From assembly GCF_006517175.1 (NCBI RefSeq), contig NZ_CP041186.1, positions 2,445,001-2,509,000 of the forward strand: a DNA stretch of 64,000 bases, read 5' to 3'. This DNA comes from Persicimonas caeni (GTDB lineage: Bacteria > Myxococcota_A > Bradymonadia > Bradymonadales > Bradymonadaceae). Both the position numbers and the translations under genes were made by a program. The notes under the pieces were generated by a model, which worked only from the letters and a program-made list of their open reading frames with translations, made no database searches and had not been told where the DNA came from. Positions 19,791 to 58,592 of the stretch are shown here, in pieces; position 1 is the stretch's first letter; the number at the start of each line of letters is the position of its first letter.

Positions 19791-20831
19791 ATGGATCTCC
19801 TCAAAACCCTCTCCGAACTACCGGGCGCGCCCGGTCGCGAAGAAAAAGTCCGTGACTTCATCAAAAGCAAGGTCGACGGCCTCGCCGACGAGGTGCGCGT
19901 CGACGCAATGGGCAACCTGATCTGCCGCGTCAAACCCTCGGGCGACGGCGAAGGCACAGATGCCCAAAAGGTCATGCTCGCCTGCCACATGGACGAAATT
20001 GCGTTTTACGTGCGCAAGATCGACGACGACGGCTTCATTCGGCTGCAGCACCTGGGCGGCTTCGACAACCGCAACCTCTTCGCCCGCCGCGTGCGCATCC
20101 AGACGCGCGACGGCGAGGAGATCATCGGCAACCTGAACCCGGGCGGAAAGCCGATCCACATCTCGGACGCCGAAGAGCGCAAGAAGATCCCGAAGATGCA
20201 CGAGTTTTTCGTCGACACCGGCCTGTCCAAAGAGGAGCTCGAAGGCCGCGTGCGCCCCGGCGACCCGGTCACGCTCGTCGCCGAGTTCATCGAGATGGGC
20301 AACCTGGCCAGCGGCAAATGCCTCGACAACCGCGTGGCCTGCTGGGTGGGCATCCGCGTGCTCGAGCAGCTCGCCGACGCCAAGACCGACTACGACGTCT
20401 ACGTGGTGTTTACCGTTCAGGAAGAGATCGGCATCCGCGGCGCGACGACCTCGAGCTACGAGATCGATCCCGATATCGGCATCGCCATCGACACCACCCT
20501 CGCCGTCGACACGCCCGGCGTGCCCGACGAGCACGAGATCACCAACCTGGGTGACGGCGTGGCCATCAAGATCATGGACTCGTACACGGTCAGCCACAAA
20601 GAGCTCGTCGACGAGTTCATCGAGCTCGCCGAGGCCAACGAGATCAACCACCAGTACGAGATTCTGCCGCTGGGCGGCACCGACGCCGCGGCCCTGCAGC
20701 GCGCGCGAAGCGGCTCGAAGGCGATCACGCTGAGCGTCCCGACACGCTACATCCACACGATCACCGAGACCATCCACAAGGATGATCTGAAGGCGACCGT
20801 GGAGCTACTGACGGCGTATTTGACGACATGA
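19791..20831 (+). CDS. M42-family metallopeptidase (glutamyl/deblocking aminopeptidase type)
   Basis: The 346-residue cytoplasmic protein carries the expected ligands and catalytic residues. These are ACHMDEIAF (first His and Asp), LDNRVAC (bridging Asp), QEEIGIRG (catalytic Glu pair), AIDTTLAVDTPG (Asp ligand) and the late His in PTRYIHT. GGTDAAAL precedes it. M42 enzymes form large tetrahedral aminopeptidases that trim short peptides. GGAG about nine bases upstream supports the ATG at 19791. The last four bases overlap tyrA (ATGA), suggesting a two-gene operon; no functional link between them is obvious. Confidence 0.9.
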   Translation: MDLLKTLSELPGAPGREEKVRDFIKSKVDGLADEVRVDAMGNLICRVKPSGDGEGTDAQKVMLACHMDEIAFYVRKIDDDGFIRLQHLGGFDNRNLFARRVRIQTRDGEEIIGNLNPGGKPIHISDAEERKKIPKMHEFFVDTGLSKEELEGRVRPGDPVTLVAEFIEMGNLASGKCLDNRVACWVGIRVLEQLADAKTDYDVYVVFTVQEEIGIRGATTSSYEIDPDIGIAIDTTLAVDTPGVPDEHEITNLGDGVAIKIMDSYTVSHKELVDEFIELAEANEINHQYEILPLGGTDAAALQRARSGSKAITLSVPTRYIHTITETIHKDDLKATVELLTAYLTT

Positions 20832-21946
20832 CCAAACTCGACGAACTGCGCGAACAACTCAACGAGATCGACGAGCAGTTCCTGCGCTTGGTGCAAAAGC
20901 GCCAAGCGCTCGTCGAAGAGATCGGCCAGGTCAAACAAAAGATGGGCCGCGGCACGCGCGACTTCGGTCGCGAGAAGGTCGTCATCGAGCGAGCCCGGGG
21001 CTTGGCCGACGACCTCGGGCTCGACCCTGACCTGGCCGCTGCGCTCTTTCGCCAGCTCATCCAGGCCTCGCTGACCGTCCAGGAGCGCGACCGCCTCGAG
21101 CAGCGCGGCACCGGCGGAGGGCGGCCGGTACTCTTGATCGGCGGCGCCGGGCGCATGGGAAAGTGGTTCGCCGACTTCTTGGACGCGCAGGGCTACAACG
21201 TCACCATCGCCGACCCGGCCGGCTCGGTCGACGGCTTCGAGAATGTCGACGACTGGCAAGCCCTTGACCTCGACGATTTCTACATGATCGTCGTCGCCGC
21301 CCCGATCCGCGCGACCAACCGCGTCCTGCTCGAGCTCGCCGAGCGCGCCCCCTCGGGCGTGGTGCTCGACATCAGCTCGGTCAAAGAGCCGGTGCGCCCC
21401 GGCCTCGAAGCCCTCGTCGCCGCGGGCGTGTCGACCACCTCGGTCCACCCGATGTTCGGCCCCTCGACCGAACTCTTGTCGGGATCCCACGTCATCTTCA
21501 TCGACCTGGGCGACCGCCAAGCCCTCGACGCCGCCCGCGCGCTATTCGACGACACGATGGCCGCCAAAGCCGAAATGAAGCTCGAGCAGCACGACCGCGC
21601 CATGGCGTTCGTCCTGGGCCTCTCGCACGCGCTCAACATTGCCTTCGGCGACGCCCTTGCCCAAAGCGGCCCCCGCGCCGAGCGCCTCGACGAGGTCTCC
21701 AGCACCACCTTCGCCCGCCAAGTCGGCGTCGCCGGCGAGGTCGCCCGCGAAAACCCCTACCTCTACTTCGAAATCCAGGCGTTCAACCCCTACTCCGACG
21801 AAACCCTCGCCGCCCTCGCCGACTCGGTCGCACATTTACGCGAGACGGTCGCCAACGGCGACGAAGAGGCTTTCGTCGAGATGATGGAACGCGGCCGCGA
21901 GTTCCTGACGGCCAGACCGGAGGCTTCTGACGGGAACAGTGGTTAG
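20828..21946 (+). CDS. tyrA: Bifunctional chorismate mutase / prephenate dehydrogenase (T-protein)
   Basis: The 372-residue fusion has an AroQ-type chorismate mutase domain (about 1-95), with LDELREQLNEIDEQFLRLVQ and KRQALVEEIGQVK. The NAD-dependent prephenate dehydrogenase domain has GGAGRMGKWFADFL (nucleotide loop, about 100-115), LDISSVKEP and SVHPMFGPS. The layout matches enterobacterial TyrA. It converts chorismate to prephenate and then to 4-hydroxyphenylpyruvate for tyrosine. It is translationally coupled to the upstream peptidase and convergent with aroC. Since the mutase is here and pheA (27553) lacks one, this is the only visible chorismate mutase in the locus. Confidence 0.95.
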   Translation: MTKLDELREQLNEIDEQFLRLVQKRQALVEEIGQVKQKMGRGTRDFGREKVVIERARGLADDLGLDPDLAAALFRQLIQASLTVQERDRLEQRGTGGGRPVLLIGGAGRMGKWFADFLDAQGYNVTIADPAGSVDGFENVDDWQALDLDDFYMIVVAAPIRATNRVLLELAERAPSGVVLDISSVKEPVRPGLEALVAAGVSTTSVHPMFGPSTELLSGSHVIFIDLGDRQALDAARALFDDTMAAKAEMKLEQHDRAMAFVLGLSHALNIAFGDALAQSGPRAERLDEVSSTTFARQVGVAGEVARENPYLYFEIQAFNPYSDETLAALADSVAHLRETVANGDEEAFVEMMERGREFLTARPEASDGNSG

Positions 21947-21982: not shown

Positions 21983-23029
21983 TCAAAAGCGGTCGAGATC
22001 CTGGAGCCGATTCAGCTGAAACTCCAAGAAGTGGTCGGCGAGCACGAGCGCGGCCATCGACTCGAGCACGGGGATCGCCCGCGGGACGATGCACGGGTCG
22101 TGGCGGCCCTTTTTGGACATCTCGCCGACGGTGCTCGCCGGCTTGAAGTAGGTGAGCAGGCGGATGCGTTGACCGTTGGAGATGCCGCCCTGGATGCCGT
22201 TGGCCGACGGGCTGATGCCGGCCTCGGGGCCGTAGCCGCTCTTGCCGGCGTGGAAGTCGAAGCCCGACTTGGTGCTGTCTTCGGCGGCGTCGCCCAGCGT
22301 GCAGCCGACGACGGCGCCCACGCTCATCATGGCGTTGGCGAGGGTGTTTTTGATCTTGCGGAAGACCGGCTCGCCCAGACCAATCGGCAACCCGTCGATC
22401 CACAACTCGACGATGCCGCCGCGCGAGTCGCCCTGCTCTTTGCACGCGAGCAACTCCTCTTCGATGCGCGCGGCGACCTCGAGGTCGGGGCAGCGCGTGG
22501 CGTGTTGATCGACGCGATCGCGATCGAGGTCCTCGGGCACGTCTTGGGCGCGATGCTCGCCGATTTGGCGGGTAAAGCCGACGATGGAGACCTCGTCGGG
22601 CAACATCTTCTCGGCGATGGCCCCGCCGATGACCCGCGCGGCCGTCTCACGCCCGGAGGCGCGCCCGCCGCCGCGGTAGTCGCGGTGGCCGAACTTCTCC
22701 TCCCAGGTGCGGTCGGCGTGGCCCGCCCGAAAGAACTTCGGGTCGTAGTCGCGGCTGCGCTGGTCCTTGTTCCAGATGATCACGCAGATGGGCGTGCCCA
22801 AGGTCTTGCCCTCGAAGACGCCGCTCAAGATGTCGGGCGCGTCCTTCTCGTCGCGCGCGGTGGTGATCTTCGATTGGCCGGGCCGACGGCGCATGAGTTG
22901 GGGCACCAGATCGTCGGGCGACAGTTCCACCCCGGCGGGCACACCGTCGACAATCGCGCCAAGCGCGCGGCCGTGTGACTCGCCAAAGGTGGTCAACCGA
23001 AGCAAATTGCCGAATGTGTTGCGGTCCAT
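21983..23029 (-). CDS. aroC: Chorismate synthase
   Basis: The 348-residue protein has the chorismate synthase signatures GNLLRLTTFGESHGRALG near the N-terminus, DYRGGGRASGRETAARV, and GGISNGQ in the C-terminal half. It converts EPSP to chorismate and needs reduced FMN. The ATG at 23029 follows GGAGAG and gives normal length. It is the third aro gene on the minus strand after aroBA and aroKDE, separated from the latter by 208 bases containing short GC hexamer repeats, so it may have its own promoter. Confidence 0.96.
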   Translation of the reverse strand: MDRNTFGNLLRLTTFGESHGRALGAIVDGVPAGVELSPDDLVPQLMRRRPGQSKITTARDEKDAPDILSGVFEGKTLGTPICVIIWNKDQRSRDYDPKFFRAGHADRTWEEKFGHRDYRGGGRASGRETAARVIGGAIAEKMLPDEVSIVGFTRQIGEHRAQDVPEDLDRDRVDQHATRCPDLEVAARIEEELLACKEQGDSRGGIVELWIDGLPIGLGEPVFRKIKNTLANAMMSVGAVVGCTLGDAAEDSTKSGFDFHAGKSGYGPEAGISPSANGIQGGISNGQRIRLLTYFKPASTVGEMSKKGRHDPCIVPRAIPVLESMAALVLADHFLEFQLNRLQDLDRF

Positions 23030-23237
23030 AAAAGCTCTCCAATCAAGCCACCCGCCCCCGCGAACGTGCACGTGCACGCGAACGCAAACGAGCAGTCAAA
23101 GCTGCAATGAGTCCAATGTGACGACCAGGTTCGAGTTTCACCGACATGGTCGCTTTGAAAACCTTTGTCTTTCCGACCGTCTGTGCAGGAGGAAAGGCCG
23201 TTCAGGTGCACGAGCACGTTCACGGGGTTCGATTCGC

Positions 23238-25082
23238 TCACGAGTACCAATACGCCCTCTGCGCCCTCGCCTGAGCGTCAAAGAAGGTATCGCCGTTAAG
23301 ATGCACGCCCACGCCCTCGGGTGCAGCACGCACGCCGGTATAATGCAAGTCGACCCACACCTCGCAAGCAGGCGGGTTCGCGTACGTTCGGTCCGAATCG
23401 CCGGTGGCGTTCACCACCATCGTCACTGAGTCAGGCGCCGCGTCGGTCCAGCCCTCTCGCCCGCTAGCGTGGTGCACCAGGTCCCACTGCGACTCCTCCA
23501 ACGCCCGAAGCACCGCCGGCGAAACGCCGCCGCGGCCGATGATGGCCACGGTGCCGGGCGCCATGCCCTGCTCTTCGGCTGCAGCCAGCGTCGCCTGCAT
23601 GCCGTACTCGTCGGTATCGGTCGCCTCCCACTCGCGTGGCCCAATGCGCCGCAACGTGTTGGCGGCCGACAGCCCCTCGGGGTTCTCGACGACGTCGGGC
23701 GCGAGGATGGCGCGCTTGAGCGGCGAGGTAATCGACAGCCCGCGCACGTCGAGCCAGGCGGCGCTGTCGAGGAGCAACTCGAGCTCCTCCGTCGATGCCT
23801 CACGCCCGAACGGGATTTTAACGTACGAGGTGTTCCGTCCTTCGTCTCGGGCAGCGCGGCGATGCCAGACATCGCCCTGGCTCGACTCGACGGGGTCACC
23901 CAGCAACCCTTCGAAGCCGGTGGGCTCGGGCCCGGCGAGGTGTGGCAGCCAGCCCTGCAGGTCGAGCGGCGTCTCGACCGGGTTGTCGGTGTGCGTACGC
24001 CGCTGAGGCCCCAGGCCCACCGGCAGATAATTCGACGCGTTGCGCAGCACGAGCGGCGGTCGACACCAGGCGAACGCGCTCCCTTGCGGCAGGCACGTGA
24101 CCGCGTGCCCGGCCTCGCGGATCCGCGCGTCGGCGTCGAGGACCTCGAGCAAGTCGGCGTAATCGTCGACCACCGGCGCATACTTCAGCACGAGCTCGCT
24201 CGCCCAGTCGGGATGCGCTTCGGCGAGCTTGGTGGCTTCGTAAACGAGTCGGTCGACTCGCTCGGCGGCCGTCTCGGGCGGGTGCCACGACAACAACAAC
24301 GGACGTGGCTCGAGCTTGTCGAGCGTGCCCGCCTCGAGCACCTCGTCGATGAGCGAAATGTCGATATCGATGGCGGCCGCGTGGTCGAGCTTCTCGAGCC
24401 ACTCGGGCTCCGGCGTGCGCAGGCTGGCGAGCACGTCGACGTCGAGCGCCGCAGCTTCGGCGGCGTCGAGCAGGTCGCTGCGCACCTCTACGCCGGCCAG
24501 GCCGAGCACCCTGGCGTCGTGCACGGCGCGGTCGAGCTGCTCGGAGCCCGCAGGCACAACCCAGGTGCGCCCGGCGAGGGTCGACTCGGGTAATTCGAGC
24601 AGCCAACCGATCATCGTCGCCAGGTCACGCCCGGTGCGCTCGGGGCCTCGACCACGCGAGACATCGAGGCGCAGGTGCGCCGCCGCTTCCCAGCGCGGCT
24701 CGCGCTCGGCGACCATCCAGGCGACCTCATCGGCGAAGTCGTCGTCAGGGTTGAGCTGCGCGCGCGCCGCCTCGGCGACCTCCTGCCAGCCATCGCGGTA
24801 CAGCCAGATGGCCACGCCGTCGTCAGGCACCGGAAAGAAGCCACCGCCCAGCGAGATGATACGCGGCTGGCCCGTCGCCTCCGAACGCACCTTGTCGAGG
24901 TACTCGTGCTCGAGCCTGCGAAAGCGCGGCTCGCCGTCGGCGATGATCTCGGCGCAGGTCTGCCCTTCGCCCGCCTCGAGCACCTCGTCGAGGTCGACGA
25001 CCTCCAGGCCGAGGTGCTCGCCGGCGAGGCGTGCAGCGGTCGATTTGCCCGAGCCGCGATGGCCGATGATGTAGATGTTCAT
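23238..25082 (-). CDS. aroKDE: Trifunctional fusion: shikimate kinase - type I dehydroquinase - shikimate dehydrogenase
   Basis: The 614-residue protein has three domains. Residues 1-170 are shikimate kinase: GHRGSGKST (P-loop), VDLDEVLE, and SLGGGF. Residues about 174-385 resemble type I 3-dehydroquinase: GVEVRSDLL, IDIDISL, the His-bearing LLSWHPPE (about 266) and the Schiff-base Lys candidate in LVLKYAP (about 299). Residues about 389-614 are shikimate dehydrogenase: GLSITSPLKRAI with the catalytic Lys, SAANTLRR, ATDTDEYG and IIGRGGVSPAVLRAL. The domain order equals the C-terminal three-fifths of fungal AROM. The dehydroquinase part is divergent, so its activity is the least certain. The ATG at 25082 is used rather than the TTG at 25088. 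The upstream partner is aroBA. Confidence 0.88.
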   Translation of the reverse strand: MNIYIIGHRGSGKSTAARLAGEHLGLEVVDLDEVLEAGEGQTCAEIIADGEPRFRRLEHEYLDKVRSEATGQPRIISLGGGFFPVPDDGVAIWLYRDGWQEVAEAARAQLNPDDDFADEVAWMVAEREPRWEAAAHLRLDVSRGRGPERTGRDLATMIGWLLELPESTLAGRTWVVPAGSEQLDRAVHDARVLGLAGVEVRSDLLDAAEAAALDVDVLASLRTPEPEWLEKLDHAAAIDIDISLIDEVLEAGTLDKLEPRPLLLSWHPPETAAERVDRLVYEATKLAEAHPDWASELVLKYAPVVDDYADLLEVLDADARIREAGHAVTCLPQGSAFAWCRPPLVLRNASNYLPVGLGPQRRTHTDNPVETPLDLQGWLPHLAGPEPTGFEGLLGDPVESSQGDVWHRRAARDEGRNTSYVKIPFGREASTEELELLLDSAAWLDVRGLSITSPLKRAILAPDVVENPEGLSAANTLRRIGPREWEATDTDEYGMQATLAAAEEQGMAPGTVAIIGRGGVSPAVLRALEESQWDLVHHASGREGWTDAAPDSVTMVVNATGDSDRTYANPPACEVWVDLHYTGVRAAPEGVGVHLNGDTFFDAQARAQRAYWYS

Positions 25083-25121
25083 ATTCAAACTCGGCTAATG
25101 ACTTGATTCGCACGACATTTT

Positions 25122-25163
25122 CCTCTCCTCCCGCAGCGTAGCGGAGGGAAGGAGAGGAGCTTT
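25122..25163. repeat. Short family B palindrome between aroBA and aroKDE
   Basis: TTCCTCTCCTCCCGCAGCG, then TAGCGGAGGGAAGGAGAGGA, is a single family B hairpin. It fills most of the 100-base gap between the two fused aro genes. It may act as an intercistronic hairpin or attenuate read-through. Confidence 0.75.
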
Positions 25164-25182
25164 GCATGTTGGCAATGCTTTT

Positions 25183-27450
25183 TCACAACGCGCCAACCAC
25201 CCACCCCACACGCCGCGCATCGTGCCAAAAGGTCGGGTAAGACTTCGCCACCACCATCGGATTTTCAATCAGCAGCGGCGTCCCGCCCGCCGTCATCAAC
25301 AGGCCCGCCATCGCCAGGCGATGGTCGCCGTAGGTGGGCCATAATCCACGCGCACGCGGTGTCTGCCCCCCTGCGGGAATCGTCATGCCGTCGTCGCGCG
25401 GCTCGATCTCGATGCCGACGTCGGCGAGCGCCTGGGCGAGGTCGCCGATGCGGTCGGACTCCTTGTGGCGCAGGTGCGCGGCGCCCACGATATTGACCTG
25501 CGGGTCGATCTGCGTAGCCACGGCGGTGAGCACCGGCGCCAGGTCGGGCGCCTCGGCGAGGTCGACGTCGACGCTGTCGACGCCCTCTTCGTGGGCTTTG
25601 GCCAGCTTGGCGGCGATGTCGGCGGCGCGCGCGTCGGGCTGGCGGCCCGATTGGGGCGAGCGGGCGACGTCGGCCTCCACGCCGACCAGCCGCGCGAACG
25701 CCCACACGGCGGCGCTGCTCGCGTCGGTCTCGGCGACGAGCGTTGCTGGCTCGTCGAGCGTCGGAGTCGGCGCGAATTGGAACGAGCCGTCTCCTTCGGT
25801 CACGTCGACGCCGGCCGTCCGAAGCAGGTCGAGGGTCATGTCGAAGTACGGCCGACTCGCGATCGACCCGTCACCCGACAACGCCAACTCGAACCCGTTT
25901 CCACTCGTCGAAAGCAGCGCCAGGGCCGTGGCGTACTGCGACGACAGCTCGGCCGAGATCTCGAAGCGCTCGGGCCACGTCGACCAGCCCCGCACACGAA
26001 TGCCTTTGCCCTCGTCGGTCTCGACCGGCTCGATCGTCGCGCCGGCAGCCCGCAGGGCATCGAAGAGCGCGTCGTGCGGGCGCTCGAGCAGTCTCGGGGC
26101 AGCCAAAACGACCGTCTCGCCGGGCCGCGCGGCGCACACGGCGCTCAGGAATCGAAAGGTCGTGCCGCCCTCGCCGGCAAAGATCGTCGTCGGCCCGTCG
26201 GCTTCCTGCGACTCGGCTTCCTTTAACTCAGCCCCTTTTAACTCAGCCCCTTTTAACTCAGCAAGACAACGGCGAAGCCAGGCGACGTCGTCGGCCGTGC
26301 TGTAGCCGTCGATGCGCGTCTGGCCGGGGCGCAAGTGCTCGATGACGAGCGCGCGGTTCATCTCCGACTTGCTCGCCGAGATCTCCAAGCTGGCCGCGCG
26401 CTCCACGCGACGCTCGACGAGCGCCGGGGTCGACTCGAACCACTCGACCGCCTCGCGAAAGGCCTCGTACCAGTCGTCGGCGCTCACCTCGCGGGTGACG
26501 TACGGCTCGCCGGGGGCGTCGAGGAGCACCGAGCGCAGCTGGCCCTCGATGCGCTTTTTGTCGCGCTTGATGCCCGCGCAGAAGCGCTCGCGGTCCTCGA
26601 ACGCGCTGATGACCTGCGCCGGAGTCAACAACTCGTAGACGTGCCGGCGAAGGCGCGGGAAATCGCTCAGAAAGCTCGCCGAGAGCATGCCCCAGCAGAC
26701 CGCTTGGCCGTGCGAGATGCCCGTGTGCAGCTCGAGGGTGTGGGCGACGGTGTGCCCGAAATTCAAGAAGGTGCGGATCTCTTTGGTCTCGTAGAGGTCC
26801 TGGTCGACGATGTCGAGTTTGACGTCGATGGCGCGCTCCAACAGCTCCATCATCCGCTCGCGAATGTCGTCGAAGGGAGCCGAGGCGAGCTCGCCGACGC
26901 CGCCGTCGGCTTCGAGCAACTCGAGCGCGTCGGCGTCGCCCAGCCACAGACCTTTGACGAGCTCGGCGAGGCCGTCGCGGCGATGCTCGAGCGGCAGGGT
27001 CGCCAGCGCCTCTTCGACGAGCACGACGCGGTCAGCCGGATAGAAGGTGCCGAGCTGGTTTTTGGCCGCGCCCAGGTTCACCGCCGTCTTTCCGCCGTGG
27101 GCCGAGTCGACCATCGCCAGAAGCGTGGTGGGCACGTGCCACAAATCGACGCCGCGCCACAAAATACTCGCCAAAAACCCGACGGCGTCGCCGATGGAGC
27201 CGCCGCCGACGCCCACCAGTGTCAGAGGTCGCGTCGAGCGGCGCTCGAGCACCTGGCCGGCAAGCTCCTCGATGGAGGCGAGCCGTTTGAGCGATTCGCC
27301 CGCCTCGACCACGATGGGGTCGGGCAGCGCGTCGATCCACGCCTCGGGAAGCGCGTTGTCGACGACGACGATGGCGTCGTCGGGAAGCTCGAGCGCACTG
27401 AAACTGCGTGCGCGCGTGATTTCTGAAGTCTTGGAATCGGGTCTGCTCAT
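25183..27450 (-). CDS. aroBA: Bifunctional fusion: 3-dehydroquinate synthase - EPSP synthase
   Basis: The 755-residue fusion starts with 3-dehydroquinate synthase (about 1-345): GVGGGSIGDAVGF, LAMVDSAHGGKTAVN, GLAELVKGLW and the metal ligand motif FGHTVAHTLELHTG with SHGQAV. EPSP synthase follows (about 350-755): SASKSEMNRALVI, EGGTTFRFLSA, SSQYATALAL, RPYFDMTLDLL, LRHKESDRIGDL and TYGDHRLAMAG. All classic motifs are present, though the usual GNAGT reads GEGGT. This order equals the N-terminal half of fungal AROM. A small in-frame 15-base tandem repeat lies in the EPSP synthase part. ATG 27450 and ATG 27495 are both possible starts; neither has a convincing ribosome site. It is divergent from pheA. 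Confidence 0.93.
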   Translation of the reverse strand: MSRPDSKTSEITRARSFSALELPDDAIVVVDNALPEAWIDALPDPIVVEAGESLKRLASIEELAGQVLERRSTRPLTLVGVGGGSIGDAVGFLASILWRGVDLWHVPTTLLAMVDSAHGGKTAVNLGAAKNQLGTFYPADRVVLVEEALATLPLEHRRDGLAELVKGLWLGDADALELLEADGGVGELASAPFDDIRERMMELLERAIDVKLDIVDQDLYETKEIRTFLNFGHTVAHTLELHTGISHGQAVCWGMLSASFLSDFPRLRRHVYELLTPAQVISAFEDRERFCAGIKRDKKRIEGQLRSVLLDAPGEPYVTREVSADDWYEAFREAVEWFESTPALVERRVERAASLEISASKSEMNRALVIEHLRPGQTRIDGYSTADDVAWLRRCLAELKGAELKGAELKEAESQEADGPTTIFAGEGGTTFRFLSAVCAARPGETVVLAAPRLLERPHDALFDALRAAGATIEPVETDEGKGIRVRGWSTWPERFEISAELSSQYATALALLSTSGNGFELALSGDGSIASRPYFDMTLDLLRTAGVDVTEGDGSFQFAPTPTLDEPATLVAETDASSAAVWAFARLVGVEADVARSPQSGRQPDARAADIAAKLAKAHEEGVDSVDVDLAEAPDLAPVLTAVATQIDPQVNIVGAAHLRHKESDRIGDLAQALADVGIEIEPRDDGMTIPAGGQTPRARGLWPTYGDHRLAMAGLLMTAGGTPLLIENPMVVAKSYPTFWHDARRVGWVVGAL
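26221..26262 (-). repeat. In-frame 15-base tandem repeat in the EPSP synthase domain
   Basis: On the coding strand GCTGAGTTAAAAGGG is repeated 2.8 times, encoding AELKG-AELKG-AELK. The unit uses TTA and AAA codons, which are rare in the surrounding GC-rich gene, so it looks recently expanded. It sits in a surface loop before the FAGEGGTTFRF motif. Confidence 0.85.
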
Positions 27451-27552
27451 GACGGCGTTTTCATTGCGACGGGAAGCTTCGGTTGTATGCTCCATGCAAC
27501 CGTATGCATGATGGATTGCCAGCTACTTTGGTGCACGACACAGGATTGTTCA

Positions 27553-28410
27553 ATGGCCAACCAAGACTCATCCCATGCGCTCGAGGTCGCCTACCAGGGC
27601 GAGATCGGCGCGTACTCCGAGGGCGCAGCCGTCGAGGCGCTCGGCGACGCCATCACACCGATGCCCTGCGAGAGCTTCGATGCAGTCTTCGAGGCGCTCG
27701 CCGACGGCCGCGCCGACCGCGCCGTGCTGCCCATCGAGAACTCCCTGGCCGGCAGCATCCACCGAAATTACGACCTGATGCTGCGCCACGATTTTCATAT
27801 CGTCGGCGAGCATATCTTTCGGGTGCACCACAATTTAATGGCGCTGCCCGGCCAGTCCATCGACGAGATCGACGAGGTGCTGAGTCACCCGCAGGCGCTG
27901 TCACAGTGCGAACACTACCTGCGGGACCTTGGCGTCGAGACGCACGCGACCTACGACACCGCCGGCAGCGCCAAGCGCGTGCGCCGAGAGAAGCTAGCCC
28001 GCACCGCCGCCATTGCCAGCCGGCGCGCCGCCGACGCCTACGATCTCGAAATCCTCGCTGCAGGCATCGAGGATGATCCGGAGAACTACACGCGTTTTCT
28101 AATCTTGGCGCGCGAGCCCCAGACGCCCGCCGAAGGGACGAACGCGAAGACGTCGATCGTCTTCTCCCTCAAGGATCAGCCGAGCGTGCTCTTCAAGGCC
28201 CTGTCGGTCTTCGCGCTGCGCGACATCGACCTGACCAAACTCGAGAGCCGACCGCTTCGCGGGCGTCGGTTCCGGTACTTGTTCTATCTGGACTTCGTCG
28301 GCAGCGTCGAAGAAGAGCGTGCGCAGAATGCGCTGCGGCACCTGGAAGAGATCGCGCCGATGTTGCGCGTGCTGGGGAGTTACGGGCGCCATATTGTCCA
28401 AAGCGCCTGA
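27553..28410 (+). CDS. pheA: Prephenate dehydratase
   Basis: The 285-residue protein is a stand-alone prephenate dehydratase: VAYQGEIGAYSEGAA at the N-terminus, VLPIENSLAGSIHRNYDLM, SHPQALSQCEHYL and NYTRFLILAR. A C-terminal ACT regulatory domain follows (about 200-285), with DQPSVLFKALSVFALRDIDLTKLESRP, the usual Phe-binding segment. It converts prephenate to phenylpyruvate and is probably inhibited by phenylalanine through the ACT domain. There is no chorismate mutase domain. The start at 27553 is supported by AGGA about eight bases upstream. It is divergent from aroBA and followed by an aminotransferase gene 47 bases later. Confidence 0.95.
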   Translation: MANQDSSHALEVAYQGEIGAYSEGAAVEALGDAITPMPCESFDAVFEALADGRADRAVLPIENSLAGSIHRNYDLMLRHDFHIVGEHIFRVHHNLMALPGQSIDEIDEVLSHPQALSQCEHYLRDLGVETHATYDTAGSAKRVRREKLARTAAIASRRAADAYDLEILAAGIEDDPENYTRFLILAREPQTPAEGTNAKTSIVFSLKDQPSVLFKALSVFALRDIDLTKLESRPLRGRRFRYLFYLDFVGSVEEERAQNALRHLEEIAPMLRVLGSYGRHIVQSA

Positions 28411-28457: not shown

Positions 28458-29609
28458 GTGCGTAGCCAAAGAGTCGAGTTCCTGCAGCAATCCGACATTC
28501 GTCGCATGACCCGTGAGTGCAACCTCGCCGGCGGGATCAACCTCGGCCAGGGCATCTGCGATTTGCCCACACCTCCGGAGGTGCTCGACGAGGCCTCGAA
28601 GGCGGTGCTCGCCGACAAGAGCGTCTACAGCAAATACGAAGGCATCGACGAGTTGCGCGAGGCGCTCGCAGACAAGCTGCACACCCACAATAAGCTCGAC
28701 GTCGACCCCGACAGCGATATCGTGGTCACCGTCGGCTCGACCGGCGCCTTCGCGAGCACCATCCAGGGGCTGTTCAACCCCGGCGACGAACTGATGGTCT
28801 TCGAGCCGTACTACGGCTACCACCTCAACACGATGCGCGTGGGCGGGGTGAAGCCCAACTTCGTGACCCTCGAGCCGCCCAATTGGGAGTTCTCGGCCGA
28901 AAAGCTCGAGGCCGCGCTCACGCCCAAGACCCGCGGCATCGTGGTGAACACGCCGACGAACCCGTCGGGCAAGGTGTTTACCCGCGAAGAGATGAACACG
29001 ATCGCCTGGTTCTGCCAGAAGCACGATCTCATCGCGATCACCGACGAGATCTACGAATATATCCTGTACGACGGGCGCGAGCATATCAGCTTGGCGAGTC
29101 TGCCGGGGATGTACGAGCGCACGGTCACGATCTCGGGTTTCTCGAAGACATTCTCGATCACCGGCTGGCGCATCGGTTATGCGGTCGCCCCGCCCGAGCT
29201 CAGCGAGGCGATCGGCCTGGTCAACGATCTGTTCTACGTATGCGCTGCGACTCCCTTGCAGCACGGCGTGGCCCGCGGCATGGCGCGCCTCGACCCGTCG
29301 TATTACGCCGAGATGGCCGCCGACTACGAGAAGAAGCGCGACATGTTCTGCGCCGCGCTCACCGAGGCCGGCCTCACCCCCTACGTCCCCGCCGGCGCCT
29401 ACTACGTGCTCGCCGACATCTCGCCGCTCGGCTGCGACACCGCGCGCGAGGGGGCGATGAAGATCCTCGAAGAGGCCGGCGTGGCCAGCGTGCCCGGAAG
29501 TGCGTTCTACCAGTCGGAGGCCGGTGAGTCGCTCACCCGGTTCTGCTACGCGAAGGATTGGGACACGTTGGAGGCTGCGGCGGAGCGGTTGAGTCGTCTG
29601 GGGGGCTGA
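28458..29609 (+). CDS. PLP-dependent class I/II aminotransferase (probable aromatic/aspartate type)
   Basis: The 383-residue fold-type I aminotransferase has NLGQGICDLPTPP near the N-terminus, VGSTGAFASTIQGL, VVNTPTNPSGKVF, DEIYEYILYDG, the PLP-binding Lys in SGFSKTFSITGWRIGY, and a late Arg in SLTRFCYAKDW that binds the substrate carboxylate. Directly after pheA, its likely job is the final transamination of phenylpyruvate or 4-hydroxyphenylpyruvate, though aspartate or kynurenine use is equally compatible with the fold. GTG at 28458 is preceded by GAGG. Its stop overlaps the start of the GHKL ATPase gene by one base (TGATG). Confidence 0.88.
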   Translation: MRSQRVEFLQQSDIRRMTRECNLAGGINLGQGICDLPTPPEVLDEASKAVLADKSVYSKYEGIDELREALADKLHTHNKLDVDPDSDIVVTVGSTGAFASTIQGLFNPGDELMVFEPYYGYHLNTMRVGGVKPNFVTLEPPNWEFSAEKLEAALTPKTRGIVVNTPTNPSGKVFTREEMNTIAWFCQKHDLIAITDEIYEYILYDGREHISLASLPGMYERTVTISGFSKTFSITGWRIGYAVAPPELSEAIGLVNDLFYVCAATPLQHGVARGMARLDPSYYAEMAADYEKKRDMFCAALTEAGLTPYVPAGAYYVLADISPLGCDTAREGAMKILEEAGVASVPGSAFYQSEAGESLTRFCYAKDWDTLEAAAERLSRLGG

Positions 29610-31288
29610 TGACCGAGAAACTCCAAAAGCAGACGATCCTCGACGACTTGGTCAACCAGTTCGCCGACCCGCTGTCGTTTTTCCGCGAGCTCATCCAAAA
29701 CGCCATCGACGCCGGCTCCGGCGAAGTCAACGTCCACTTCGGCTTCGACCCCCACAGCAAGCCCGATGCAACCCTTCCCCCGGGGGAAGGGGCCTCGCGC
29801 GCCTTACAGCGCGAGGCGGATGGGGGGCGCCAACAAGCTGGGAGCCTCAAAGGCACGATGACCATCCACGTCGACGACTTCGGCGAAGGGATGAACCGCG
29901 AGATCATCGAGACCAAGCTCACCCGCCTGTTCAGCTCGGCCAAAGACGACGACTACACCAAGATCGGCAAATTCGGCATCGGGTTCGTCTCGGTCTTCGC
30001 CATCGAGCCCGAGGCCGTCTGCGTCGACACCGGACGCACCGGCGAGAGTTGGCGGGTGCTCTTTTCGGCCGACAAGACCTATGAGCTCTACAAGCTCGAC
30101 CATCCCATCGAGGGCACCCAGATTCGGCTCTTCAAAGAGGTCGGCCGCGAGGAGTTCGACGACTTCGTGGCCCGCGCCCGCGACGTCATCATGCACTGGT
30201 GCAAGCACGTCCCCATCCCCATCTACTTCGAGGACGAAGAGCTCGCCGCCCCCTTCGACATCGACTCGCCGTGTAAGCTGGAGCACCGCGAAGAGGGAAC
30301 GCGCCTGGTCATGGGCTTCGTCGACAGCTTCGAGGCCCCGTTCGGCTACTACAATCGTGGGCTCACCCTCAAAGAGGGCGACGAGAGCCCGTGGCCGCAT
30401 ATCGCCTTCAAGCTCGACTCGCGCTACCTGGAGCACACGCTGACCCGCGACCAGATCTTGGAGGACAAAAACTTCCACAAGGCGTGGAAGCTCCTCGAAG
30501 AGATCGCCACCGAAAGGCTCCCCGAAAAGCTCGTCGACCTCATCGAGGCCGAGGCGAAGCATCCAGCGGGACGCGACCTCCACGAAGAGCTCTGCGGCCA
30601 CCTGCTGCGCTGGCTCGAGGTCGACGGCGCGTTGCGCCGCGATTGGTCGAAACGCCCGCTCATCCCGACGGTGCACGGCGAGGCGGTCAGCTTGCGAGAG
30701 TGTGAGCGGCGCGCGAACAAAGGCCAGCTCTTCGCCGAACCGGAGGCTACCGCGCTCACTGCGCGCCTCGCCGACGACTACCTGGTCATCCGCGCCGCGG
30801 ACGACTCACCGATTCAAAGGCTGATCGATCGCACGGTGGGCCACAGGCCGCCGGTCGCCTCGCGCCAATTCGCCTTCGCGGCGCAAGCAGCCGGCGCGCC
30901 CGCGGCAGGCATCGGTGAGCTTGGCGAGCAGCTCGCGCTGTTAGTGCGCGAGATGGGCGGCGCCCTCGACTGGGTGGGCTTGCTCGAGTTCGACGACGGC
31001 GTCGCCGGCAACGATCGCATGGCACTCGCGCTCGAAGATCGCCACGAGCCGGTGCCGATCGACGACGTGCCCGCATGCGGCGAAGCGAGCCTGTGCGAGG
31101 CGCACCACCTGGTGCTCAACCTGAGCGACGAGCGCGTCGACAAATTGGTGCGCCTATCGAAGAAAGAGCCCGAATGGGCCGCCTATACCCTGCTCAAGCT
31201 CCTCCTGCTCGACGACGAGCTCCGCCCCGAGCTCGACAGCCTGCTCGCCGCGCGCGCCGTCGAGCGGCGCAAGCGCCGCCTCGATTAG
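29609..31288 (+). CDS. GHKL (HSP90-type) ATPase carrying an in-frame palindromic insertion
   Basis: The 559-residue protein has a Bergerat ATP-binding fold: N-box FFRELIQNAIDAG (about 24-36), DDFGEGM (about 88-95) and GKFGIGFVSVF. A middle domain follows, like that of HSP90/HtpG (about 170-330), then an unrecognised C-terminal part. All key ATP-binding motifs are present. The strand hairpin between VNVHFGFDPHS and GTMTIHVDDFGEG is interrupted by about 25 residues (PDATLPPGEGASRALQREAD and on) encoded by a family A repeat at 29769-29832; the frame is kept. The start overlaps the aminotransferase stop, indicating coupling. The degenerate relative at 33544 may have been its original downstream neighbour before the IS arrived. 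Confidence 0.85.
   Translation: MTEKLQKQTILDDLVNQFADPLSFFRELIQNAIDAGSGEVNVHFGFDPHSKPDATLPPGEGASRALQREADGGRQQAGSLKGTMTIHVDDFGEGMNREIIETKLTRLFSSAKDDDYTKIGKFGIGFVSVFAIEPEAVCVDTGRTGESWRVLFSADKTYELYKLDHPIEGTQIRLFKEVGREEFDDFVARARDVIMHWCKHVPIPIYFEDEELAAPFDIDSPCKLEHREEGTRLVMGFVDSFEAPFGYYNRGLTLKEGDESPWPHIAFKLDSRYLEHTLTRDQILEDKNFHKAWKLLEEIATERLPEKLVDLIEAEAKHPAGRDLHEELCGHLLRWLEVDGALRRDWSKRPLIPTVHGEAVSLRECERRANKGQLFAEPEATALTARLADDYLVIRAADDSPIQRLIDRTVGHRPPVASRQFAFAAQAAGAPAAGIGELGEQLALLVREMGGALDWVGLLEFDDGVAGNDRMALALEDRHEPVPIDDVPACGEASLCEAHHLVLNLSDERVDKLVRLSKKEPEWAAYTLLKLLLLDDELRPELDSLLAARAVERRKRRLD
29769..29832. repeat. Family A element inside the GHKL ATPase coding sequence
   Basis: The perfect palindrome CCTTCCCCCGGGGGAAGG (29773-29790) is followed by a 9-base stem GCCTCGCGC/GCGCGAGGC (29792-29817) and GGATGGGGGGCGCC. 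This is half of the family A unit seen between genes elsewhere. It is translated in frame and adds about 25 residues to a loop of the ATPase domain. Confidence 0.9.
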
Positions 31289-54939: not shown

Positions 54940-56286
<1,347 letters not shown>

Positions 56287-56726: not shown

Positions 56727-58592
56727 ATGTATCAAAAAGCACTCATCCCTGCCGCCGGACGCGGCGCTCGTCTCGACCGCCCCAATACTCCCAAGCCGCT
56801 CGTCGACGTGGGCGGCCGCCCCTTGATCCTGCATGTGCTCGAGCAACTCGAGGCCGCCGGAGTCGACGAGGCGGTGGTCGTGTTGGGCTTCGAAGCCAAA
56901 AAGATCGCCCGCGAGCTGACCAACCACCCCGACCTGTCCATTCAGGTGACCTTGGTCGAGAATCCGTCGTGGCAACATGGCCTGGCCAGCAGCTTGCTGG
57001 CGGCCCGCGAGCACTTCGACGCGCCCTTCTTGCTGTCGATGGCCGACCACTTCTTCGACCCCGCGCTCGTCGAGCGCATGGCCCAGGTCGACCTGAGCGA
57101 CGAGCAGGTTGCCTGCATGCTCGTCGATCGTGATACGAGCCGAATCTACGACCTGGACGCCGCCGTCAAGGTCAACCTCGACGGCGAGCGCGTGCTCGAC
57201 GCCTCTCGAAGCCTCGAAAACGCCCACGGCGTCGACGCCGGGCTCTTTGCCTGCCGCCCCGCTCTGTTCGACGCCCTCGAGGCCACCTTGGCCGACACCG
57301 AGCCCGCCGACCTGACCGACGCCATCGCCCGGCTGGCCGCCGACGGCAAGGTCGCCGCCCGCTTTGTCGGCGAGCGCAAGTGGTACGACATCGACACCCC
57401 GCCGGCGCTGATTCGCGCCGAGATGGACCACCGCCAAAAGCGCCGCGTCGAGGCGGTCTTCTCGGCCGACATCCACGACACCGACCGCGAGACCCACGAG
57501 TACACCTTCGTCACCGGCAAGCCCATCGAGACCGACGTGTTCGTCCAGCGCGGCTTCGTGCGCAACCCGAACACCATCAAGCTCATCCCCGACGAGAGCG
57601 CCTCGTCGCCCATCTACGTGTTCACCGACACGCGCGTCAACGAGCTGTACGGCGACGATTTCGTCGGCGGCCTGAGCGACATGGGCTACGACGTGCGCCG
57701 CATCGTCATGGCCGAGGGCGAGGAGTCCAAGACCCTGTCGAACTACACCAAGCTCGTCGAGCACGTCCTCGGCGAGGGCATCGACGAGCGCTCGGTGCTC
57801 GTCAGCCTGGGCGGCGGCGCGGTGTGCAACGTGTGCGGCTTTATCGCCTCGACCCTGTACCGCGGCATCGGCCTGGTGCACGTTCCCACCACGCTCATGG
57901 CCCAGTGCGACGCCGCCATCAGCCACAAGCAGGGCGTCAACGGCGAGCGCGGCAAAAACCTGGTCGGCGCCTACTACCCGCCCATCAATATCGCCGTCGA
58001 CGTCGAGGTCCTGGCCACCCTCGAGGACTGGCTCATCCCCGACGGCCTGAGCGAAGTCGTCAAGCACGCGCTCGGCCAAGACCCCGACTACCTGCAATTT
58101 TTGCTCGACTACGACGGCGCCATCGACGACCCCGACTTTCTGGAGGCGGTCGTGCGCAAGAATATCGAGCTCAAGTGCGAGCTGATGGCCATCGACCCCA
58201 AAGAGCTTCGCGAGGGCATGGTCCTGCAGTACGGCCACACCGTCGGCCACCCCATCGAGTACCTGTCGGGCTACGACCTGAACCACGGCCAGTCGGTCGG
58301 CATCGGCATGATGGTCGCCGCGCGCGTCTCCCGCCTTCTGGGCGGCTGCGACGAGGAGATCATCGAGCTGCACCGCCACGTCATCGAAAAGTACGAGCTG
58401 CCCACCCGCATCCCCGAGTCGATCAAGGTCGACGACATCCTGGCGATGATGCGCTTCAACAAGCGCTACCTGACCGAAGGCACGCGCATGGCGCTCGTCG
58501 ACGGGCCGGGCACGCTGTGGTCGGTCGACGATGACTACGCGATTCCGGTCAGCGACGCCGTCCTTCGTGAAGCGATCGAAGCGAGCTATTGA
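56727..58592 (+). CDS. Fusion of an inositol-phosphate-cytidylyltransferase-like domain and a 2-deoxy-scyllo-inosose-synthase-like cyclase
   Basis: The 621-residue protein has two enzymes. Residues 1-235 are a nucleotidyltransferase: KALIPAAGRGARLDRPNTPK, NPSWQHGLASSLLAA, PFLLSMADHFFDP and AHGVDAGLFACRP. That pattern fits CTP:inositol-1-phosphate cytidylyltransferases. Residues about 255-621 are a sugar phosphate cyclase: VSLGGGAVCNVCGFIAS, SHKQGVN (about 399-405), GKNLVGAYYPP, LSEVVKHAL (about 442), YGHTVGH (about 502-508) and LNHGQSVGIGMM. The KQ-x-VN and GKNLVGxYYPP forms follow 2-deoxy-scyllo-inosose synthase, not dehydroquinate synthase (DS-x-GGK). Catalytic Lys and metal ligands Glu, His, His are present. 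Likely role: make and activate a cyclitol. Confidence 0.85.
   Translation: MYQKALIPAAGRGARLDRPNTPKPLVDVGGRPLILHVLEQLEAAGVDEAVVVLGFEAKKIARELTNHPDLSIQVTLVENPSWQHGLASSLLAAREHFDAPFLLSMADHFFDPALVERMAQVDLSDEQVACMLVDRDTSRIYDLDAAVKVNLDGERVLDASRSLENAHGVDAGLFACRPALFDALEATLADTEPADLTDAIARLAADGKVAARFVGERKWYDIDTPPALIRAEMDHRQKRRVEAVFSADIHDTDRETHEYTFVTGKPIETDVFVQRGFVRNPNTIKLIPDESASSPIYVFTDTRVNELYGDDFVGGLSDMGYDVRRIVMAEGEESKTLSNYTKLVEHVLGEGIDERSVLVSLGGGAVCNVCGFIASTLYRGIGLVHVPTTLMAQCDAAISHKQGVNGERGKNLVGAYYPPINIAVDVEVLATLEDWLIPDGLSEVVKHALGQDPDYLQFLLDYDGAIDDPDFLEAVVRKNIELKCELMAIDPKELREGMVLQYGHTVGHPIEYLSGYDLNHGQSVGIGMMVAARVSRLLGGCDEEIIELHRHVIEKYELPTRIPESIKVDDILAMMRFNKRYLTEGTRMALVDGPGTLWSVDDDYAIPVSDAVLREAIEASY

Follow-up and report, generated by a model that had tools for sequence, protein, structure and literature searches.

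The window, the whole stretch of 64,000 nucleotides of Persicimonas caeni DNA that was analysed, contains two adjacent minus-strand ORFs, followed by aroC, that carry five shikimate-pathway domains in the transcription order 3-dehydroquinate (DHQ) synthase (B), EPSP synthase (A), shikimate kinase (K), dehydroquinase (D) and shikimate dehydrogenase (E). The initial annotation had described five enzymes in this order in two adjacent proteins, a description that is confirmed by Pfam, an AlphaFold model, profile alignment and the operons of homologues. The features of the locus and its aromatic neighbours are listed below.

20828..21946 (+), chorismate mutase-prephenate dehydrogenase, tyrosine branch (Pfam)
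21983..23077 (-), aroC, chorismate synthase, last pathway step, downstream of KDE, probable ATG at 23029 (Pfam, E 1.8e-103)
23238..25088 (-), KDE, fusion gene for shikimate kinase, type I dehydroquinase and shikimate dehydrogenase, 616 aa (Pfam, model, profile)
23238..23924 (-), E domain, shikimate dehydrogenase, residues 389-616 (Shikimate_dh_N)
23925..24593 (-), D domain, predicted divergent type I 3-dehydroquinase, TIM barrel, residues 166-388 (model and aligned motifs)
24594..25088 (-), K domain, shikimate kinase, residues 1-165 (SKI, E 2e-15)
25089..25182 (no strand), 94-bp gap between the BA stop and the KDE start, the "break" of the initial annotation (ORF ends)
25183..27495 (-), BA, fusion gene for 3-dehydroquinate synthase and EPSP synthase, 770 aa (Pfam/NCBIfam; PDB matches to AROM B-A and to single enzymes; family conservation)
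25222..26394 (-), A domain, EPSP synthase, about residues 368-758 (EPSP_synthase, PF00275, E 1.5e-54)
26446..27423 (-), B domain, DHQ synthase, about residues 25-350, N-terminal part short (DHQ_synthase 61-171 and DHQS_C 175-314, Pfam)
27487..28410 (+), prephenate dehydratase with ACT domain, phenylalanine branch, divergent from BA (Pfam, E 7.1e-64)
28458..29609 (+), class I/II aminotransferase (Pfam, E 8.6e-64)

Domains and catalytic residues of BA and KDE

The BA protein is matched by the Pfam families DHQ_synthase, DHQS_C and EPSP_synthase. The B domain matches TIGR01357 below the equivalog cut-off of that model, and it contains the Zn ligands E/H/H and the active-site lysines expected of a DHQ synthase; E178, H248, H262, K136, K181 and K226 are invariant in 14 homologues. 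In the A domain, residues K376, R381, R448, D651, E679, R726 and K751 are invariant in the family alignment. The longest BA ORF begins at 27495, upstream of the start originally placed at 27450, which is Met16 of this ORF and remains plausible because the homologues begin near residue 24.

The KDE gene starts with TTG, with an ATG two codons downstream, and its product is matched in Pfam by SKI and Shikimate_dh_N. G14, K15, D32, D34, R57, R109 and R129 of the K domain are invariant in 16 homologues, as are K458, N477, T492, D493 and Q606 of the E domain in the family alignment. The motifs that had been noted for all five domains are thus upheld, in that the catalytic positions checked are invariant across all five in the family alignments; the roles of active-site residues in shikimate kinase, shikimate dehydrogenase (SDH), DHQ synthase, EPSP synthase and dehydroquinase are those generally assigned to them in these enzymes.

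Pfam detects nothing in the region between K and E, even with the threshold relaxed to E 10, and PF01487 is unmatched both in KDE and genome-wide. The AlphaFold model of KDE, for which a 16-sequence family alignment was the input, has a mean pLDDT of 88.6 and a pTM of 0.89, with eight strands in this middle region. A Foldseek search of the model against the PDB places fungal AROM first across K-D-E (E 1.6e-20) and the Arabidopsis dehydroquinase-SDH second. Additionally, the KDE profile, which included Bdellovibrionota KDE sequences, is collinear with K-D-E of AROM (6hqv, positions 1-526, E 1.9e-37). Residues E201, R203, D205, R224, D243, H269, K302 and R343 are invariant in 16 homologues, and the E-R-D, S-H, K and R positions fall on the VELR, SH, IK and SR motifs of the AROM and Arabidopsis dehydroquinases. 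The hallmarks of a type I dehydroquinase, a TIM barrel with a Schiff-base lysine (K302) and a catalytic histidine (H269), are therefore present in the model and the alignment. Taken with the profile matches and the invariant catalytic residues, the model identifies the D domain as a divergent type I dehydroquinase.

With these identities, BA and KDE would jointly catalyse shikimate steps 2-6, from DAHP to EPSP: BA would form dehydroquinate (step 2) and EPSP (step 6), KDE would carry out steps 3, 4 and 5, and the aroC product would make chorismate (step 7). The source genome has three matches to the DAHP synthase family PF00793, which also takes in KDO8P synthase. The aminotransferase at 28458..29609 may, judged from its position, serve the last step of phenylalanine and tyrosine synthesis. 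A protein with a Sacsin/HSP90-like ATPase domain adjoins the aromatic cluster at 29558-31288 (+) (Pfam).

Distribution and fusion states in bacteria

The KDE gene is present in 20 of the 21 genomes of the family and is followed by aroC in nearly all relatives. BA adjoins KDE in the source genome (G000) and in G003, G006 and G020. The two genes are unlinked in others of the family, at distances of about 2.1 Mb in G008, 4.3 Mb in G005 and about 43 kb in G013 and G016, as they are in most other Bradymonadales. In G006 (Lujinxingiaceae MGR_bin152) the BA stop overlaps the KDE start (ATGA). This genome has a second BA copy away from KDE (49% identical to the BA of the window). The KDE-linked copy is immediately preceded by a DAHP synthase-family gene, so that all seven steps to chorismate are clustered there. 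Adjacent BA and KDE genes may be co-translated from an operon.

A contig search with a single KDE sequence as query returned no relative, and the BA alignment as query gave matches. The Ignavibacteria/Bacteroidetes MAGs that have BA each also have KDE, unlinked, with aroC after KDE where the contig allows; the taxon labels of some relative MAGs are doubtful, for example those of an "Ectothiorhodospiraceae" and a "Proteobacteria" record. In a plasmid search, one tblastn piece at an unannotated place in Acetoanaerobium noterae (NZ_CP154629.1, 2433465-2435714, minus strand) covers 91% of BA, including both B and A, at 26% identity, and possibly represents another BA-like fusion, in a Firmicute.

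Among the Bdellovibrionota, 135 of 369 genomes have a match to the KDE profile at E<=1e-30. Nearly all of the 40 loci that were analysed, from 39 distinct genomes, are in the order aroB-aroA-KDE, usually followed by aroC. Unfused B and A with a fused KDE and then aroC are found, for example, in L097, L099 and L237-L249. Ten of these genomes (L230-L235, L282-L284 and L289, the last truncated by its contig) instead encode a tetrafunctional A-K-D-E protein of about 980-1150 aa, in which A joins K almost without a linker, with B just upstream. The AKDE proteins occur in at least two places in the trees, and this fusion has therefore probably arisen more than once. A 943-aa frame in L006 was considered as a longer KDE fusion and rejected, as the extension upstream of KDE is only reading frame that stays open across a CapA-like gene encoded in the same direction.

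The series of states in bacteria comprises B, A, KDE and aroC as separate genes; B, AKDE and aroC; BA, KDE and aroC, as here; and unlinked BA and KDE. An unsplit version, which had been suggested as a thing to look for in related genomes, did not appear, there being no single BAKDE frame in about 400 genomes (57 of the class and 369 of the Bdellovibrionota). A chance juxtaposition in one genome is rejected because dozens of operons in related bacteria have this order. A pseudogene was likewise considered and dropped, as was an assembly artefact, the same ORFs being found in many independent genomes.

Relationship to eukaryotic AROM

AROM (Aro1) is described as a protein of fungi and protists with the domain order B-A-K-D-E (PMC6851490), and shikimate enzymes are typically separate in bacteria (PMC6851490, PMC9074039). 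The bacterial system comprises the same five enzymes in the same order, with a type I dehydroquinase and with K-D-E covalently joined. It differs in being divided between two polypeptides (B and AKDE, or B, A and KDE, in relatives), in the presence of aroC in the same operon, in the high divergence of D and in the separate phylogenetic position of B and A. AROM itself assembles as a homodimeric complex with the DHQ synthase and dehydroquinase domains at its centre.

In the trees, all of which are unrooted and in which long branches are common, AROM is represented by two fungal sequences (Chaetomium and Candida) that were taken from PDB search output and are incomplete in the B and E domains. 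For B, AROM groups with Gemmatimonadaceae and with K-B type enzymes of the class, and the BA-type B domains form one clade with those of Bdellovibrionota, which are nearest to them (100/96). For A, it groups with single bacterial EPSP synthases (98/97) and stands apart from the A domains of both the BA type and the Bdellovibrionota. AU tests reject a clade of AROM with BA for both B (p=0.005) and A (p=0.0003). When AROM is joined with BA and Bdellovibrionota together, p is 0.068 for B (0.027 with more sequences) and 0.031 for A (0.020 with more sequences), a rejection that is modest. In the E tree, a 100/99 branch separates all 40 KDE-type domains from AROM and ordinary SDHs; forcing AROM together with KDE is nevertheless not rejected for K (p=0.67), E (p=0.45) or K and E combined (p=0.49).

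The history that these data most probably reflect is one in which the genes of an ancient aroB-aroA-aroKDE-aroC operon fused step by step and came to resemble AROM by convergence. The ancestral bacterial operon would still be widespread in Bdellovibrionota, and its neighbouring genes would have fused in different combinations, giving BA here and in a Bacteroidota/Ignavibacteria lineage and AKDE in some Bdellovibrionota. The direction was probably from operon to fusion rather than by fission, because the unfused state is widespread, the trees being unrooted. The shared domain order would then be convergence, probably as both systems followed the gene order of an operon-like arrangement. The identities, order, conservation and distribution of the domains, their fusion states and the tree placement of B and A are what the sequences themselves provide for this reading. 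Of the three origins put forward in the initial annotation (a bacterial relative or source of AROM, a split transfer from a eukaryote, and convergent fusion), the last fits best. The description of the AROM order as broken once holds insofar as a stop and a 94-bp gap are present, but it misleads if a broken AROM is understood, as the bacterial series reads as pieces at different stages of joining.

Common ancestry, in which AROM, or at least its K-D-E half, derives from the bacterial BAKDE operon, with fusion following the transfer, is considered unlikely. The identical order of the five domains and the fusion of K-D-E in both systems are what it would predict; the whole KDE finds its best match in AROM by both fold and profile, and the K, E and K+E trees allow AROM with KDE. 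However, the high AROM score of the full KDE reflects the summing of several domains, and with the D-E profile alone ordinary SDHs and the Arabidopsis protein (2gpt) score above AROM. The domain phylogenies with fungal AROM, which had been proposed as a check, give a divided answer: for K, E and K+E the AU p values are 0.45-0.67, whereas B and A of AROM sit among ordinary bacterial enzymes, apart from BA, which speaks against kinship. A bacterial relative or source of AROM is not borne out on this evidence, and the tree placements count against a shared origin of the B-A half. A KDE (or BAKDE operon) lineage might have supplied AROM with K-D-E, if not more, while B and A were gained or substituted from other bacteria, but this version too seems doubtful; if it were true, the order of AROM would go back to a bacterial operon still in existence.

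Several other fusions can be compared with this locus. The plant bifunctional dehydroquinase-shikimate dehydrogenase has D and E fused in the same order, and Arabidopsis 2gpt aligns across D-E; here, in contrast, shikimate kinase is fused in front, and E belongs to a separate KDE-specific clade. A chlamydial bifunctional dehydroquinase-shikimate dehydrogenase (D-E) also exists. The bacterial AroKB (shikimate kinase-DHQ synthase; NCBIfam PRK13951/PRK14021) is likewise a bacterial fusion of shikimate-pathway enzymes and occurs in neighbouring families within this order and class, but its partners are K and B, and most of those relatives use a type II dehydroquinase. A further system for comparison is the aroB-aroA-aroKDE-aroC operon of Bdellovibrionota, with a homologous KDE, the same gene order including aroC and a B in the BA-type clade; it differs in that B is unfused to A and in that some genomes fuse A to KDE. 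In the open-access literature, which is the literature covered, no earlier report of bacterial fusions in AROM order was found. The series B, A and KDE; B and AKDE; and BA and KDE comprises fused shikimate multienzymes in AROM order and offers a natural test of how and in what sequence multienzymes come together, and of whether the order of domains bears on channelling or dimer geometry. The tetrafunctional EPSP synthase-shikimate kinase-dehydroquinase-shikimate dehydrogenase of Bdellovibrionota is of interest in its own right.

Because intermediates must leave BA for KDE and then return to BA, a putative BA-KDE complex in trans is possible; in most Bradymonadales the two genes are unlinked, and gene order there therefore implies no physical complex. 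The throughput of C. thermophilum AROM in vitro is reported to be no higher than that of the separate domains (PMC9074039), and co-regulation and fixed stoichiometry are therefore at least as likely a benefit as channelling.

The aromatic pathway of the family and remaining alternatives

No type I or type II dehydroquinase outside KDE was detected in the source genome or its 20 family relatives, and most neighbouring families carry a type II dehydroquinase. In each family genome that has an SDH N-domain, the only one is that of KDE. D and E were thus detected in the fusion proteins alone, and KDE must supply both if the pathway works. One family genome (G011, 93% complete) lacks a match to KDE, BA and the SDH N-domain, and is possibly a true aromatic auxotroph.

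Bradymonadia have been reported to be without complete phenylalanine, tyrosine and tryptophan synthesis, or parts of it (PMC7188933, PMC7460792), and it is conceivable that BA and KDE are degenerate or partly inactive, for instance with an inactive D, in agreement with this auxotrophy. The D domain is so divergent that Pfam misses it, and the Aro1 of C. albicans has an inactive dehydroquinase domain (PMC9074039). This explanation is nonetheless quite improbable: 16 diverse homologues share H269, K302 and the rest of the active site without variation, the family genomes contain no alternative dehydroquinase, DAHP synthase-family genes are present, and none of the genes is disrupted, all being conserved in about 20 genomes. 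The published claims of auxotrophy are based on KEGG/RAST annotation, in which fusions of this kind would go unnoticed. From the gene content it appears that chorismate can be made, and probably phenylalanine and tyrosine as well, which argues against auxotrophy at least up to chorismate. Metabolic models of the predatory Bradymonadia would need revising, since the proteins for the route to chorismate are encoded but, being fused and divergent, can escape standard annotation.

The transfer of a eukaryotic AROM to a bacterium, followed by a split, would account for the same order and for two pieces that would join into AROM, but it is highly improbable and largely refuted, given that the B and A domains group apart from AROM in the trees and AU tests, that Bdellovibrionota have unfused B and A with KDE as well as the alternative partition into B and AKDE, and that the KDE proteins of Bdellovibrionota and Bradymonadales share 24-26% identity, a depth of bacterial diversity far beyond what a single recent transfer would leave.

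The window contains a second DHQ-synthase-like (sugar-phosphate cyclase) domain, in a 621-aa fusion with a MobA/NTP-transferase domain at 56727-58592 (+), near a myo-inositol-1-phosphate synthase gene at 54940-56286 (-). Similar frames of 620-690 aa are found in many family members, and this fusion possibly belongs to a cyclitol or inositol-lipid route.
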